Shown here: piece after piece, positions 46,882-52,875 of the stretch
Position numbering within the stretch: position 1 is the first letter of the stretch
Layout: each line of letters begins with the position of its first letter
Assembly: GCA_028284955.1 (NCBI GenBank)
Contig: JANQQS010000026.1
Coordinates: forward strand, 1 to 64,000
Source of the DNA: Myxococcota bacterium
GTDB lineage: Bacteria > Myxococcota_A > Polyangia > Polyangiales > Houyiibacteriaceae
Direction of reading: 5' to 3'
DNA length: 64,000 bases
Program-made: the position numbers and the translations under genes
Notes under the pieces: model-generated
What the model saw: the letters and a program-made list of their open reading frames with translations, nothing else
Told to the model about the DNA's origin: nothing
The model's database searches: none

Positions 46882-46996
46882 GGGAGCCGAGGAAGCTCAG
46901 CCATTCAGCGACCGAGTGCGCACGTGTCTCATCGGTGCTAACCCAATCTAGACGCTGGTTCGCCGTAATCATCGAGCCAGCATCAGGTTGGGCACA

Positions 46997-48139
46997 ATGT
47001 TTTACGGGATTCTTAGGGCTTTTTCGTTATTCGCGTTTTTTCTAGTATTGGGCGGTTGCTCGGACGATCCAGGCACCGTGACCCCGATGACAGATGAGTC
47101 GACGCCGCAGCTATGTGCGGACGGGGTCGACAACGACAGCGACGGACTTATCGACTGCAACGACCTAGGCTGCGAACCGCTCTCGGTTTGTGCTTCTCGC
47201 TCAACTGGCACCGTCGACATCGCAGGGTGCTCGGCCAACACGTTTCGCGCCAACACCCAGGTGCCGCAGACCGATGTCATATGGGCGATCGACAGCTCTC
47301 GCAGCATGTCGGAAGAGCTCTCTGAAATCGAGACCAAGTTTAACCAGCTCGCGACCGACTTGATTCAAGCGCAGATCGATGTGCGCTGGACGGTGATTAC
47401 CGCCGCAGGAACCCTCCAACCGCCGACTGTCTTCGCGGCCAATCCAGATGCTTTTCAGGTCCTCGGGCGCGCGGTGGGTCCGGAACAGGCGCTTCAGGTG
47501 TTGCTGTCTGCGTATGGCGAATATTCGCCACGGCTCCGACCTGGCGCCGCGCTCCACTTTGTCGCGGTATCGAACAACGACTCATCTTTGGCGGCGAGCG
47601 CTTTCGAATCCCAAATGCAGGCGCTATCGAACCGAGTCTTCCGCGCGCATGCGATTGCCTCGCCACCAGGATCTATGTACTGCCCGTTCGGCAACTGCGA
47701 GAACGGGCAGTTTGACGGATGCTCGGGCCCATTTGGAAACGCAGTGCGCAACGGCAACGAATACTGGGCGCTCGCCGCCTCGACGGGAGGCGAACAGCTT
47801 TCCATTTGCCTCGACGATTGGACGTCACTCTTTTCGCGCCTATCCGCTGCGGTTGCCAATCAGCCCGCGACGTCGTGCGATTTTCGCGTGCCGGCAGTGG
47901 GAGAAACCTTCAACGCTCAGAAAACCAACTTCATCATCCGCACCGCGGATGGAAACACACAGACAGTTCCATTCGTCGACAATGCAACGGCGTGCACCGC
48001 CGCCGGCTGGTATTTCTCCACCGATGAGACGACCACCAGCAGCGTAATCACCACCTGCCCAGCCACCTGCGACCTGATCCGCAGCAACCCCAACGCACAA
48101 ATCGACGTCGCCATCGGCTGCGACCGAGTCCTGCAGTAG
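46997..48139 (+). CDS. vWA-domain lipoprotein
   Basis: A 380-residue lipoprotein: signal peptide with lipobox VLGGC (C21), an N-terminal DGVDNDSDGLIDCND calcium-type motif, and a von Willebrand A domain with MIDAS DSSRSMS near residue 96-102 and surrounding strands (TDVIWAID, RWTVITAAG). Paired Cys late in the protein suggest disulfides. The ATG at 46997 gives a proper signal peptide; the frame stays open 9 bp upstream to a TTG. Function is probably adhesion or a metal-dependent binding role. Confidence 0.8.
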   Translation: MFYGILRAFSLFAFFLVLGGCSDDPGTVTPMTDESTPQLCADGVDNDSDGLIDCNDLGCEPLSVCASRSTGTVDIAGCSANTFRANTQVPQTDVIWAIDSSRSMSEELSEIETKFNQLATDLIQAQIDVRWTVITAAGTLQPPTVFAANPDAFQVLGRAVGPEQALQVLLSAYGEYSPRLRPGAALHFVAVSNNDSSLAASAFESQMQALSNRVFRAHAIASPPGSMYCPFGNCENGQFDGCSGPFGNAVRNGNEYWALAASTGGEQLSICLDDWTSLFSRLSAAVANQPATSCDFRVPAVGETFNAQKTNFIIRTADGNTQTVPFVDNATACTAAGWYFSTDETTTSSVITTCPATCDLIRSNPNAQIDVAIGCDRVLQ

Positions 48140-48377: not shown

Positions 48378-48869
48378 TCAGCGCATTTCTGAGACGCCAA
48401 TGATTCTTGGGGCGTTGACCATGACCACTGACGCGGCTTCGACGCTCGGACCCTTCGCGTCTAGTCCCAGCGTGCACTCGTTCATCACGAAGAATCCCTT
48501 GAACTCCATCAGTCGATCCGATACGCGCACGCCCTGCGGGAGGGTAAGCGCCCCCATAAGAAGGCCGCCTTCGAAAAGACACGACACACGACGAGGTTCG
48601 CCCTCGGATCCTTCCTCCGTGGGCTTCAGTCGTTCGTCGGCGCCAGCGACCACGAGCACTACCGCGCTGCGCTGAAGCGCAAGGAAGGGAACTTCGGTGC
48701 GCTGCTGTGGCAGCATGACGTCAGTCAGCCGAAAAAACCCATCGACGGTGTTCAGAAACTTGAGGAACGACATCTCCGGCGGCACATGAAATGTGCCGAC
48801 GACCCAACCGCCTGACACGAAGATCCGCGCTGGGACTTTACGTCGTTTCGGATTGGCGAGCGCACCCAC
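48378..48869 (-). CDS. Protein of two related beta-domains (DUF6812-like)
   Basis: A 163-residue protein made of two similar units: residues ~14-72 (ARIFVSGGWVVGTFHVP, LKFLNTVDGFFRLTD) and ~93-140 (VSCLFEGGLLMGALTLP, SDRLMEFKGFFVMNE). Each has strand-GG/G-strand, then a helix and an FF-x-x-T/N segment. The pattern resembles DUF6812, but this identification is tentative. No signal peptide is seen. Confidence 0.6.
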   Translation of the reverse strand: MGALANPKRRKVPARIFVSGGWVVGTFHVPPEMSFLKFLNTVDGFFRLTDVMLPQQRTEVPFLALQRSAVVLVVAGADERLKPTEEGSEGEPRRVSCLFEGGLLMGALTLPQGVRVSDRLMEFKGFFVMNECTLGLDAKGPSVEAASVVMVNAPRIIGVSEMR

Positions 48870-48993: not shown

Positions 48994-49548
48994 ATGGCGC
49001 GTGACCTCCCCATCGCTGGCGATACCCGGCTGGGCCAGCCCACCGTGATGGACCGGGGTTTGGCAGCCAAGTACGGCACTCGCTACGTCCACCTGACTGC
49101 CTTTGCAATCGATGTAGACAGACTGCGCGCGCACATCGAAGAAGAGGCGGATCCCGAATCACTATGGCCGTTTGGCTGGGAAGTCTTTCTCACGGAAATG
49201 TATATGCTTGCCGTGCTGGACCCCGCAGCCCGCGAAGACTACGGACTCATTGAAGACGTGTGTGTCCACATCTTCGAGCTTGGTCCGCAGCAGCAAGCTC
49301 TCGGGGCGCAGATTCCTTTTGCGGTATTTGATGCGGTGAATCGCGGAGCGTGGCCAGACTCGCTCCTCCCACTTTTTGTGGATTGGGACCGGTCCGCGAA
49401 CAACCTCGTTCAAGATCTCAAACCTCTTTGGGAGCATGCTGAAGACGAAGCAGCCGACCTCGCAGATGCATGTTTGCGAGCACCGATGCAGCCGCCGTTC
49501 GCCCCGCCCACCAAGCACGCGCTGGCCACCTGGCTCGAGGTCGGCTGA
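48994..49548 (+). CDS. Hypothetical protein upstream of the Lgt-like gene
   Basis: A 184-residue soluble protein with Trp/Leu-rich helices (for example WPFGWEVFLTEMYMLAVLD and LPLFVDWDRSANNLVQDL, each within about residues 55-150). No family recognised. Its TGA overlaps the ATG of the Lgt-like gene (TGATG), so it is translationally coupled and probably functions with it. Confidence 0.6.
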   Translation: MARDLPIAGDTRLGQPTVMDRGLAAKYGTRYVHLTAFAIDVDRLRAHIEEEADPESLWPFGWEVFLTEMYMLAVLDPAAREDYGLIEDVCVHIFELGPQQQALGAQIPFAVFDAVNRGAWPDSLLPLFVDWDRSANNLVQDLKPLWEHAEDEAADLADACLRAPMQPPFAPPTKHALATWLEVG

Positions 49549-50504
49549 TGGCGCCAGTGGTGTTTCATCTCGCCACACCATTTGGTTTCGTGCCGGTGTA
49601 CTCCTACGGAATCCTGCTTGGGCTCAGCCTGATCGCGATCTGGTATTTTCTTCTCTATGTGGGCGTGCGCAAAGAGCACTTCAATCGCAGCCTCGCTGCA
49701 ACATCCCTAGTCGCCGCAACGTGCGGCGCATTGGTGGGTGCACGCGTGCTCTATTGGGCGCTCAATGGTGAGGCCGATGGGGTGTCGGCGTGGGCGCTTG
49801 GAAGCGGAGGGCTCCATGGCTTGGGAGGCATCGGAGGTGGATTGCTCGGCGCATATCTCTACCTTCGTCGCCGCGGAGTTCCGGTTCTCGCGTGGGCCGA
49901 CGCGGTAGCGCCATCGCTCGGGCTTGGTGCGTTCCTGACCGAGATCGGCTGCTGGCTTCACGGCTCGGGGTTCGGCACCGTTCTCGCAACGAGCGCTCCG
50001 AGGTGGCTCAAGCGCTTGGGCACATATCCGCGATGGGGCTCGGAGCTGTTTCGGGGCGCCGAAGCGCACCGGGAAGGCGCGGCCGCGTTCTATCACCATG
50101 TGAGCGTCCCCGAGTACGCCGCGCGTCTATCAGCGGACGCCGATGCATCTCTTCCCGTACATCCGACGCAGCTCTATGCGGCTTTGGCCGGGCTCGTGCT
50201 GTTCGGGCTTGGATGGAAGATTTTTCGGACGCGCGTGTTTCGTGGTCAGGTGATCCTAGCTATTGTTGCCGGTCTCGCTGCGACAACGTTTTTCTTCGAT
50301 TTCTGGGTGGCCGATCCATCGCGCGCTCACCAACTTGGGCTGTCGCCGACTCAGTGGGTTGCGCTCGGCGCCACGAGCGGGTGCGCGATCTCCTACGCAT
50401 GGCTGAGGAGACGTTTTCGGCGCGACGGAGACCCCCGGCTCCCTGAGTTTGCCGTCGAAAAAACCAGCCCTGCAGCACCCTTCGTGCGCCAAGCGGGCGC
50501 GTAG
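49548..50504 (+). CDS. Prolipoprotein diacylglyceryl transferase (Lgt) paralogue lacking catalytic arginines
   Basis: A 318-residue, about seven-helix protein with the Lgt layout: an N-terminal PVYSYGILLGL helix, GARVLYW (64-70), LRRRGVPVLAWADAVAP, and HPTQLYAAL in the later half. The strongly conserved GR-x-GNF/C segment is instead TEIGCWLHG (E132 in place of the arginine equivalent to E. coli R143), and the later FGxxRFxxEF region reads GLAATTFFFDF, with Thr in place of the arginine equivalent to R239. It may bind prolipoproteins or lipid without transferase activity, or have a different activity. The start at 49548 gives the TGATG overlap with the upstream gene. Confidence 0.75.
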   Translation: MAPVVFHLATPFGFVPVYSYGILLGLSLIAIWYFLLYVGVRKEHFNRSLAATSLVAATCGALVGARVLYWALNGEADGVSAWALGSGGLHGLGGIGGGLLGAYLYLRRRGVPVLAWADAVAPSLGLGAFLTEIGCWLHGSGFGTVLATSAPRWLKRLGTYPRWGSELFRGAEAHREGAAAFYHHVSVPEYAARLSADADASLPVHPTQLYAALAGLVLFGLGWKIFRTRVFRGQVILAIVAGLAATTFFFDFWVADPSRAHQLGLSPTQWVALGATSGCAISYAWLRRRFRRDGDPRLPEFAVEKTSPAAPFVRQAGA

Positions 50505-50543: not shown

Positions 50544-51554
50544 CTATCGGACAGCTTGCTTTTTGATCGGCTTCGCGGGCGGTCGATTTCTCTGTTTTTG
50601 CGCCCGCATGAATACACGCATGACGGTCGGCGACGTGCGTACCGAATCGAGTTCTAGATCGGGCTGCCGTTCGAGGGCGGCGCGAAACGATTTCAGCGCC
50701 AAGTCCTCTCGCCCGAGTGCGACATATGCGGTGCCAAGCACCTTCTGAATCGTCACCACTTGATTGCCGGTGAGCGCCCGTGAGCCGAGCAGTCGATTTC
50801 CGAGAGCCACTGCGTCTGTGAACTGACCTCGCTCTACATGGCCAAGCAACGCCGGCAGTTTGTCGCTGATGCGCGACTGCAGCGTTCGCGTCTCGCCCGC
50901 GCTCGTGGCGCGACCGGTTTGTTTTTCGAACGCGCGCCGCCCCTCTTCGGAAAGCACGAGCTCCGAAATCGGGACCAGTACGATCTGCCCCCGCGACAGT
51001 CGGTTCGCTCGAATACGGTTGAAGCGACGCAACAGTTTGATGGGTCCCGTGCCGGGACCGTAGTAGAGGCGCGCCACGCGAGTGAGCGTATCGTTTTGGG
51101 TCGCGACATGCCGCAGCGGATACGGAATGAGCAGCTCCGCTCCTTCGTCAGGTTGAACAGCTGCGTTTCCTCGATTGGCTTCCACGAGCGCAAACAGACG
51201 ACGCCGGTCTCCGTAAAACCGGGAAGCCAGCTCAGCCCACGTTTCCCCTGCGCGTACGCGATGGTAACTGACCCACGGAATACGCAGCCGGAGTCCCGTC
51301 ACGATGGCTTGCCCCCCTTGCGAGCTGAGACCGTTTTCCGCCACGATCACGCTTTCTCGTCGTGGCTCCCCATAATAAAGCTGCGCGATCGATGCGAGCG
51401 TCTCGCCCGGCATCACGACATGAGACAAACCATCGGCGCGGATCACGTCGGGATTCTGTGCATCCCACACCAAAATACCGAGCACCCCGAGTGTGATCGC
51501 GGCAACTCGACGCATCAACCCGGGGGCCGCGCGGCTATGGGTTTTCCGCGACAT
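50544..51554 (-). CDS. LysM-repeat and TPR envelope protein
   Basis: A protein of about 336 residues with a signal anchor (VAAITLGVLGILVW), three LysM-like domains (about 46-92, 97-143 and 150-198; motifs PGETLASIAQLYYG, RAGETWAELASRFYG and QNDTLTRVARLYYG) and TPR-like helices at the C-terminus. It should bind peptidoglycan. The start at 51554 was preferred to one at 51611 because it leaves only a 20-bp overlap with the upstream kinase gene and has GGAACAGGCGG before it; a start at 51515 is also possible. Confidence 0.8.
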   Translation of the reverse strand: MSRKTHSRAAPGLMRRVAAITLGVLGILVWDAQNPDVIRADGLSHVVMPGETLASIAQLYYGEPRRESVIVAENGLSSQGGQAIVTGLRLRIPWVSYHRVRAGETWAELASRFYGDRRRLFALVEANRGNAAVQPDEGAELLIPYPLRHVATQNDTLTRVARLYYGPGTGPIKLLRRFNRIRANRLSRGQIVLVPISELVLSEEGRRAFEKQTGRATSAGETRTLQSRISDKLPALLGHVERGQFTDAVALGNRLLGSRALTGNQVVTIQKVLGTAYVALGREDLALKSFRAALERQPDLELDSVRTSPTVMRVFMRAQKQRNRPPAKPIKKQAVR

Positions 51555-52875
51555 CCGCCTGTTCCGAATCAACGAGCGCTTCGAGCGATTCCGAAAGCAC
51601 GCGCGTTTCACCCGTTCGAATATCTACCTCCCGCGAAAGCTCGCGAAAAAACGGGTTCACCAGGCGCACGAAATGCGAACCGGCGCTCAGCGGAATTTTT
51701 TGGGCCGAAGGAGTCGTCATGACTTTCTGACCATCGACGTATACCGTAGCCCAGGGATCCACAACGACTTTCAGATACCCGGCGCGCTCGGGAACCACCG
51801 CGCCGCGCGCCCGAGTGGCGAAGCTCTTTGGGCTCCATGTCAGGTTGCCCGCAGCGGCCTGAATCGCCCCCCCGCCAGCCAATACTCCTGCCAACATAAG
51901 CCCCTGAATCAACGCCACATGTGGCAGTAGCGATCGGTCCTTGGGCCCTCGCCAGATGCCCCGCGGCCCTCCCGCGTTGAGAATCGCATCGGCCTCTTGG
52001 TCGGTCATGACGCCCACATCTCGAAGATACATCACGACTCGAGCGTTGTAATTCATAGGAACCCGAGGCGCGAGAAACTCCATCAAATCATCGATGAGTG
52101 CCTGCGTCGATGAATAGCGATTGGCGATCATCTTTTCCATACAGCGCGCCAAGATGCGCTCCAGCTGACGCGGTACCGTGCTGTTGATCTTTCGAGGGGA
52201 AACGTATCGATCGAGGCGAATCTTCTGCATCACCGTGCGCGTATCGTCTTCTACAAACGGTTTGAGGCCCGTGATCATCTGATACAGCACGATACCGACC
52301 GAAAACACATCGCTCCTGAAATCCAGCTTGTCGCCAAGGATTTGCTCCGGACTCATGTAGCTCGGCGTTCCGAGCCCCGTTCCTGTTTCGGTAAGATCGC
52401 TCAGCTTGTCGTCGCGCGCGATGCCGAAATCCATGAGTTTTACTTCACCCTGTTTGGAAATCATGATGTTCGCGGGCTTGATGTCGCGGTGAATGATTCC
52501 CCGAAAATGCGCATAATCGAGTGCCCGGGTGACTTGCAGAGCGATGATCGCGGCTACCTCGATAGGAAGCGTAGGCGTGTGCTCAAGCAGATCGTACAGA
52601 TCGATGCCCTGCACGTACTCCATGACGATGTACATGGAGCGGCCGTCCTTAACAAAATCGATGACGTGTAGAATGTTTTCATGCTGAAGCGACGCCATGA
52701 AATGCGCTTCTCGCTCGAAGCGCTTGGCAAACTGACTATCCATCGCGATGGAAGGCTTCAAAGCCTTGATCGCGACAAGTCGACCCAGCGGTTCCTGAAC
52801 GGCCTTGTACACCACCGCCATTCCCCCGCTACCGATCTCTCCCAAGATACGGCAGTTGGCTATTCGATCGGTCAT
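51535..52875 (-). CDS. Ser/Thr protein kinase with C-terminal PEGA domain
   Basis: A 446-residue Hanks-type kinase. The catalytic domain (about 8-265) is complete: G-loop GEIGSGGMA, VAIK with K37, HRDIKPAN, DFG in LMDFGIA, and SPEQ/APE-type SYMSPEQI. A helix region (about 318-340) may cross the membrane, followed by a PEGA-like beta domain (about 365-425, with VYVDGQKV). It overlaps the LysM protein gene. Contrast with the pseudokinase at 31.4 kb, which has the same outline without the catalytic set. Confidence 0.93.
   Translation of the reverse strand: MTDRIANCRILGEIGSGGMAVVYKAVQEPLGRLVAIKALKPSIAMDSQFAKRFEREAHFMASLQHENILHVIDFVKDGRSMYIVMEYVQGIDLYDLLEHTPTLPIEVAAIIALQVTRALDYAHFRGIIHRDIKPANIMISKQGEVKLMDFGIARDDKLSDLTETGTGLGTPSYMSPEQILGDKLDFRSDVFSVGIVLYQMITGLKPFVEDDTRTVMQKIRLDRYVSPRKINSTVPRQLERILARCMEKMIANRYSSTQALIDDLMEFLAPRVPMNYNARVVMYLRDVGVMTDQEADAILNAGGPRGIWRGPKDRSLLPHVALIQGLMLAGVLAGGGAIQAAAGNLTWSPKSFATRARGAVVPERAGYLKVVVDPWATVYVDGQKVMTTPSAQKIPLSAGSHFVRLVNPFFRELSREVDIRTGETRVLSESLEALVDSEQADVAENP

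Follow-up and report, generated by a model that had tools for sequence, protein, structure and literature searches.

Most Gram-negative bacteria cannot live without Lgt, which is an antibiotic target, and proteins of the PF01790 (LGT) family tend to be annotated as diacylglyceryl transferases. The closest described system to the locus analysed here is Lgt of Escherichia coli (structures 5azb and 5azc). The accessible part of one mutational study reports that E. coli Lgt carrying R143A, R143E or R143K is inactive (Mao et al. 2016, PMC4728403). The accessible text of a later paper (mBio 2026, PMC13251419) lists Y26, H103, R143, N146, G154 and R239 as required in Lgt, and cites G99, G142, G145, Y235 and R246 as essential. 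Homologues that lack R143 and R239 are already known, Myxococcales included: the same text describes an Lgt subgroup with neither arginine, and suggests a different substrate or mechanism for it. A literature search that covered few subscription papers turned up no account of an Lgt pseudoenzyme, nor of the gene pair described below.

The gene under study lies in a 64 000 nt stretch of myxobacterial DNA, hereafter the window, and belongs to a second Lgt clade that is widespread in the myxobacterial order of the window. We coined the name Lgt2 for this clade, and use Up for the conserved protein encoded immediately upstream. The relevant features of the window are as follows:

49548..50504, + strand: Lgt2-clade protein of 318 aa, without equivalents of R143, R239, H103, E202, Y235 and R246 (ORF, PF01790 match and alignment)
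49941..49943, + strand: codon of Glu132, at the position of E. coli R143 (alignment; coordinate computed from the ORF start)
50286..50288, + strand: codon of Thr247, at the position of E. coli R239 (alignment; coordinate computed from the ORF start)
48994..49548, + strand: Up, an upstream conserved protein of 184 aa, all-helical in its AlphaFold2 model, without a Pfam or NCBIfam family
49546..49550, + strand: TGATG, in which the stop of Up and the start of the Lgt2 gene overlap (sequence)
50544..51611, − strand: LysM/TPR protein, convergent; a like gene also follows at the G003, G012 and G039 loci
51535..52875, − strand: Ser/Thr kinase with a PEGA domain, the next gene; the G039 locus has a counterpart of its C-terminal part

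On the other side of Up, a DUF6812 protein is encoded divergently (48378-48869, − strand). An acidic double-disulfide repeat protein, which may be a lipoprotein, is encoded at 46988-48139 (+ strand) and scores 38.1 bits against NF033662, just below the cut-off of 41.

The 318-codon ORF contains no internal stop, and its product scores 95.7 bits against PF01790 (cut-off 24.9), which makes it a member of the family. Against the Lgt equivalog model TIGR00544 it scores 45.9 bits, far under the cut-off of 118.9. An AlphaFold2 model based on an alignment of nine rows (mean pLDDT 68.6, pTM 0.67) matches E. coli Lgt 5azb with Z 19.4 over 227 aligned residues (rmsd 3.1), and the next-best structural match has Z 7.6; as modelled, the protein retains the Lgt fold. 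The initial annotation had called the gene an Lgt paralogue with the Lgt layout, and both the family score and the predicted fold bear this out. The genome carries five PF01790 genes (six matches, two of them within one gene), and the other four retain both arginines. One of these, the C39 gene, is a canonical lgt, retaining the key residues and scoring 137.2 bits against TIGR00544, above the 118.9 cut-off. Because four paralogues keep the arginines and one passes the equivalog cut-off, the window gene is probably dispensable for ordinary Lgt activity in the cell. In the C102 gene (L004 406-2448, − strand), an Lgt domain is fused to an FGE-sulfatase (formylglycine-generating enzyme-like) domain in one frame of 681 codons.

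A first contig scan with the Lgt protein as query yielded no confirmed match; an ortholog search of 57 genomes, comprising the genome itself and its relatives, had hits within the family and the order of the window. The Lgt2 profile, built from Arg-bearing orthologs and the G040 ortholog (which has R143 only), gives the window protein 288.7 bits and its own-genome paralogues at most 133.7. In a maximum-likelihood tree, from which near-identical sequences of genus g2 were omitted, the window protein groups with the Lgt2 proteins of its own family (support 95/99), beside that of G008, and the group persists with fewer outgroup rows (91/98). The end branch of the window protein measures 1.46, against 0.33 for its sister G008. 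At a threshold of E 1e-20, 172 of the 183 genomes in the order have Lgt2-type matches, which include some other paralogues. The window protein is thus a homologue of Lgt that belongs to the Lgt2 clade, and it shares its length with the Lgt2 orthologs of the order. Since its closest relatives in the tree keep the arginines, these were most likely lost in its own lineage. It shares the lack of both arginines with the subgroup of the mBio 2026 paper (PMC13251419), which includes Myxococcales, and may belong to it; its own closest relatives retain them.

The catalytic residues were located in an alignment of E. coli lgt (NC_000913.3), the window protein, four paralogues from its own genome and 26 orthologs. 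R143 corresponds to Glu132 and R239 to Thr247, and a phmmer match to PDB 5azb gives an identical register, but is weak (E 1). The initial annotation had named these two replacements; they stand, and the loss of catalytic residues is wider than it claimed. In E. coli numbering, H103 is replaced by Leu (Leu92, neither His nor the Y, W or F found in some other Lgts), E202 by Ala, Y235 by Leu, R246 by Val and E243 by Asp, and Ser occupies the E151 position. The window protein therefore differs from E. coli Lgt in these residues and resembles it in fold, layout, Y26, G104, D129, G154 and the HP-Q-LY motif, which reads HPTQLY. It is very improbable that the arginines are present and only displaced by misalignment. 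The phmmer match is consistent with the multiple alignments, and the ortholog profile aligns without gaps through both the R143 motif (ltRiGcYlyG against LTEIGCWLHG) and the R239 motif (lwrfLleylRdDpeRG against ATTFFFDFWVADPSRA), neither of which has an arginine at the catalytic position in the window protein. We found nothing that supported displacement, and rejected it on the combined evidence of the alignments and the gap-free register with the orthologs. Judged from the E. coli mutants, the window protein is likely to be dead as an Lgt.

To place this loss, active sites were compared in 144 distinct Lgt2-type genes among the matches listed (147 rows, including three repeats, from G068, G177 and G179). 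Fragments, the N-terminally cut G016 and matches resembling other paralogues were omitted, and the three shortened Lgt2 copies described below lie outside the count. Twenty of the genes were mostly chosen deliberately from the low-scoring tail, and the weakest of them may fall outside Lgt2 proper. Among the matches listed, R143 is present in 139 of the 144 genes and R239 in 141, and 137 keep both. At least one arginine is missing in the remaining seven, which come from six genera, a count of genera showing a loss and not of losses mapped on the tree. These are the window gene (R143E and R239T), G040 (R239T, R143 kept), G071 (R143S), G103 and G104 of a single genus (R143P), G098 (R143H) and G100 (R239H). 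The window gene is the only one of the 144 without both arginines, and the only one without R246. Cysteine occupies E. coli positions 146 and 151 in 143 and 141, respectively, of the 147 Lgt2 rows among the matches listed. One or both of these cysteines are absent in the window gene, G040, G070, G098, G103 and G104, five of which also lack an active-site arginine.

Up and the Lgt2 gene share a nucleotide: the stop TGA of Up (49546-49548) overlaps the start ATG of Lgt2 (49548-49550), as expected from the initial annotation, which had described a TGATG coupling to an unknown upstream protein. Up indeed matches no Pfam or NCBIfam family, yet it represents a conserved helical family, present in 24 of the 183 genomes of the order. 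Its AlphaFold2 model is a confident helical fold (pLDDT 88.9, pTM 0.86) with no convincing match among PDB structures (best Z 4.7) and no PDB sequence match. No Pfam family is common to the Up members; there were six weak matches, each in one of 18 members, with a best E of 0.0035. The 17 named Up loci come from Sandaracinaceae/Sandaracinus (eight), Myxococcales/Polyangia (four), Deltaproteobacteria (three), Proteobacteria (one) and an uncultured bacterium (one).

Eight of these 17 loci carry an Arg-bearing Lgt2 just downstream of Up on the same strand, the likely Lgt2 start lying approximately 10 nt or more past the Up stop; within the order, Lgt2 orthologs from two further families share the position of the window gene directly after Up. 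Three loci carry a degraded Lgt2 downstream of Up (L053, L058 and L068), and five have no same-strand Lgt2 beside Up (L054, L055, L062, L064 and L065, with L062 at a contig end). At the remaining locus, L067 of G040, the R239T Lgt2 is downstream of Up with one gene between them. In this part of the locus (L067 4305-5285 and 5393-6241), we take the gene that separates Up from the R143-keeping Lgt2 to resemble a TSUP-type permease. Lgt2 without Up is common, and no match to Up was obtained in G008 or genus g2, the members of the window's family whose Lgt2 bears the arginines. The Up–Lgt2 pair is not obligate, because each gene occurs without the other beside it.

Within the family of the window, Up was found in four genomes (the window genome, G003, G005 and G012), and in all four a degraded Lgt2 follows directly. 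The lengths of these copies are 318 codons in the window, 229 in G012, 206 in G003 and 156 in G005. Their starts overlap the Up stop in three genomes and abut it in G005, and neither the window gene nor the three shorter remnants contain stops or frameshifts. The remnants align in register with the N-terminal region of Lgt2. Pairwise BLAST matches are weak (best E 0.002-0.015 for window-G003, window-G005, window-G012 and G003-G005, and 0.24 for G012-G005), and the Lgt2 profile alone matches the remnants at E 0.0005-0.013 in a set of eight sequences. In profile-to-profile comparison with Lgt2, the G003/G012 profile reaches 40.4 and the G005 profile 28.8, whereas the best of 100 column-shuffled versions reached 23.4 and 24.7, respectively; two unrelated membrane proteins used as controls score 15.7 and 18.6. 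Sub-cut-off matches to Pfam LGT, at profile positions 4-62, occur in G012 (E 0.0029) and in G003 (E 0.01); the G005 remnant has none. Position, profile comparison and the sub-cut-off Pfam matches point to homology of the remnants with Lgt2, G005 being the weakest case. The G003 and G012 remnants share 40% identity, with dN 0.63 and dS 1.12, the latter near saturation (dN/dS ~0.56). For the same genomes, Up gives dN 0.36 and dS 0.93 (0.39), and the LysM gene dN 0.42 and dS 1.02. These values suggest that constraint on the remnants is weaker than on Up, but not absent.

We next considered whether the changes in the window gene are distributed as expected of decay. A set of 20 Arg-bearing Lgt2 proteins shares 58 invariant columns, 22 of which are altered in the window protein. 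The alterations fall on seven of nine columns in the polar active-site set against 15 of the other 49 (Fisher p 0.011), and on eight of 14 in a wider pocket set against 14 of 44 elsewhere (p 0.084), both residue sets being our own choice. Invariant glycines are kept at 13 of 14 positions, compared with 23 of 44 for the other invariant residues (p 0.005). In a neutral simulation the G008 gene was randomly mutated to 42% identity in 300 runs, with all change on one branch. A frame free of stops survived in one of the 300 runs, and at most 12 of the 14 glycines were kept. Up to 27 of the 44 non-glycine invariants were retained, so the 23 kept in the window protein lie within the neutral range. 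Taken together, the stop-free frame, the kept structural glycines and the lost polar active-site residues appear more consistent with a maintained pseudoenzyme than with simple decay.

A similar pattern of change is found in G040, where 11 of the 12 changed invariant columns are also altered in the window protein (hypergeometric p 2.9e-5). At E. coli positions 102, 151, 239 and 247 the replacement is identical in the two proteins, and both have Ala at position 202, which is not among the 58 columns. The tree separates the two, but the AU test does not reject a topology that joins them in one clade (p 0.085), and for this reason we do not claim that their changes are independent.

These observations lead us to propose, with a probability of roughly 0.55, that the window gene encodes a catalytically dead Lgt2 whose fold is under selection as a membrane or lipid-binding partner of Up. 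A vertically inherited Lgt2 would have lost its active site while selection kept its membrane fold, and the protein would no longer transfer diacylglycerol. It would be made together with Up by translational coupling, and would most likely act as a membrane-embedded anchor or regulator of Up, perhaps binding lipid or prolipoprotein. A non-catalytic role with Up is favoured because frame, fold and coupling are all retained. Selection on the window gene, the one representative of its genus among the genomes compared, is supported indirectly; that its product is a partner of Up, and anchors or regulates it, is inferred. The main rival is slow stepwise decay of a dispensable Lgt2, redundant with the canonical Lgt and three paralogues, in which the window gene would be an early stage and active site, then length, then the gene itself would be lost. 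The shrinking series of copies at the same place (318, 229, 206 and 156 codons), the Up loci without any adjoining Lgt2, the long branch of the window protein and the loss of at least one arginine in seven of the 144 genes among the matches listed, from six genera, are all as such decay predicts. We regard it as less likely, given that none of the four copies has a stop or frameshift, that 13 of 14 invariant glycines remain in the window protein, that an open frame is rare under neutrality at this divergence, and that the G003 and G012 remnants are still 40% identical with a dN/dS of ~0.56.

The initial annotation had suggested a regulatory or alternative lipid-transfer role. A non-catalytic role, regulatory for example, fits the data; an altered transfer chemistry is favoured by little beyond the fold. 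An active enzyme whose chemistry or lipid donor has changed, with other residues standing in for the arginines, would account for the retention of Y26, G104, D129, G154 and the HPTQLY motif, and the accessible text of the mBio 2026 paper (PMC13251419) proposes as much for homologues without both arginines. We consider this improbable for the window protein. Alternative transfer chemistry is poorly supported because the polar network around the arginines is mostly gone, the H103, E202, Y235 and R246 positions having changed as well, and because R143E, like R143A and R143K, is inactive in E. coli according to the accessible part of the mutational study (PMC4728403). Moreover, the replacements differ by lineage (E, P, S or H at 143; T or H at 239), and form no single new set.

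Three points go beyond the initial annotation: most orthologs keep the arginines, losses recur in relatives, and Up is conserved. Tentatively, the second Lgt of myxobacteria may have been converted repeatedly to a non-catalytic membrane protein with a dedicated soluble partner, Up, halved in some lineages and possibly sensing lipid or prolipoprotein load. If true, this would constitute an Lgt pseudoenzyme system in myxobacteria. A lineage-specific loss beside Arg-bearing orthologs offers natural pairs for testing which residues are needed in catalysis, and suggests that the Lgt fold can persist without its chemistry.
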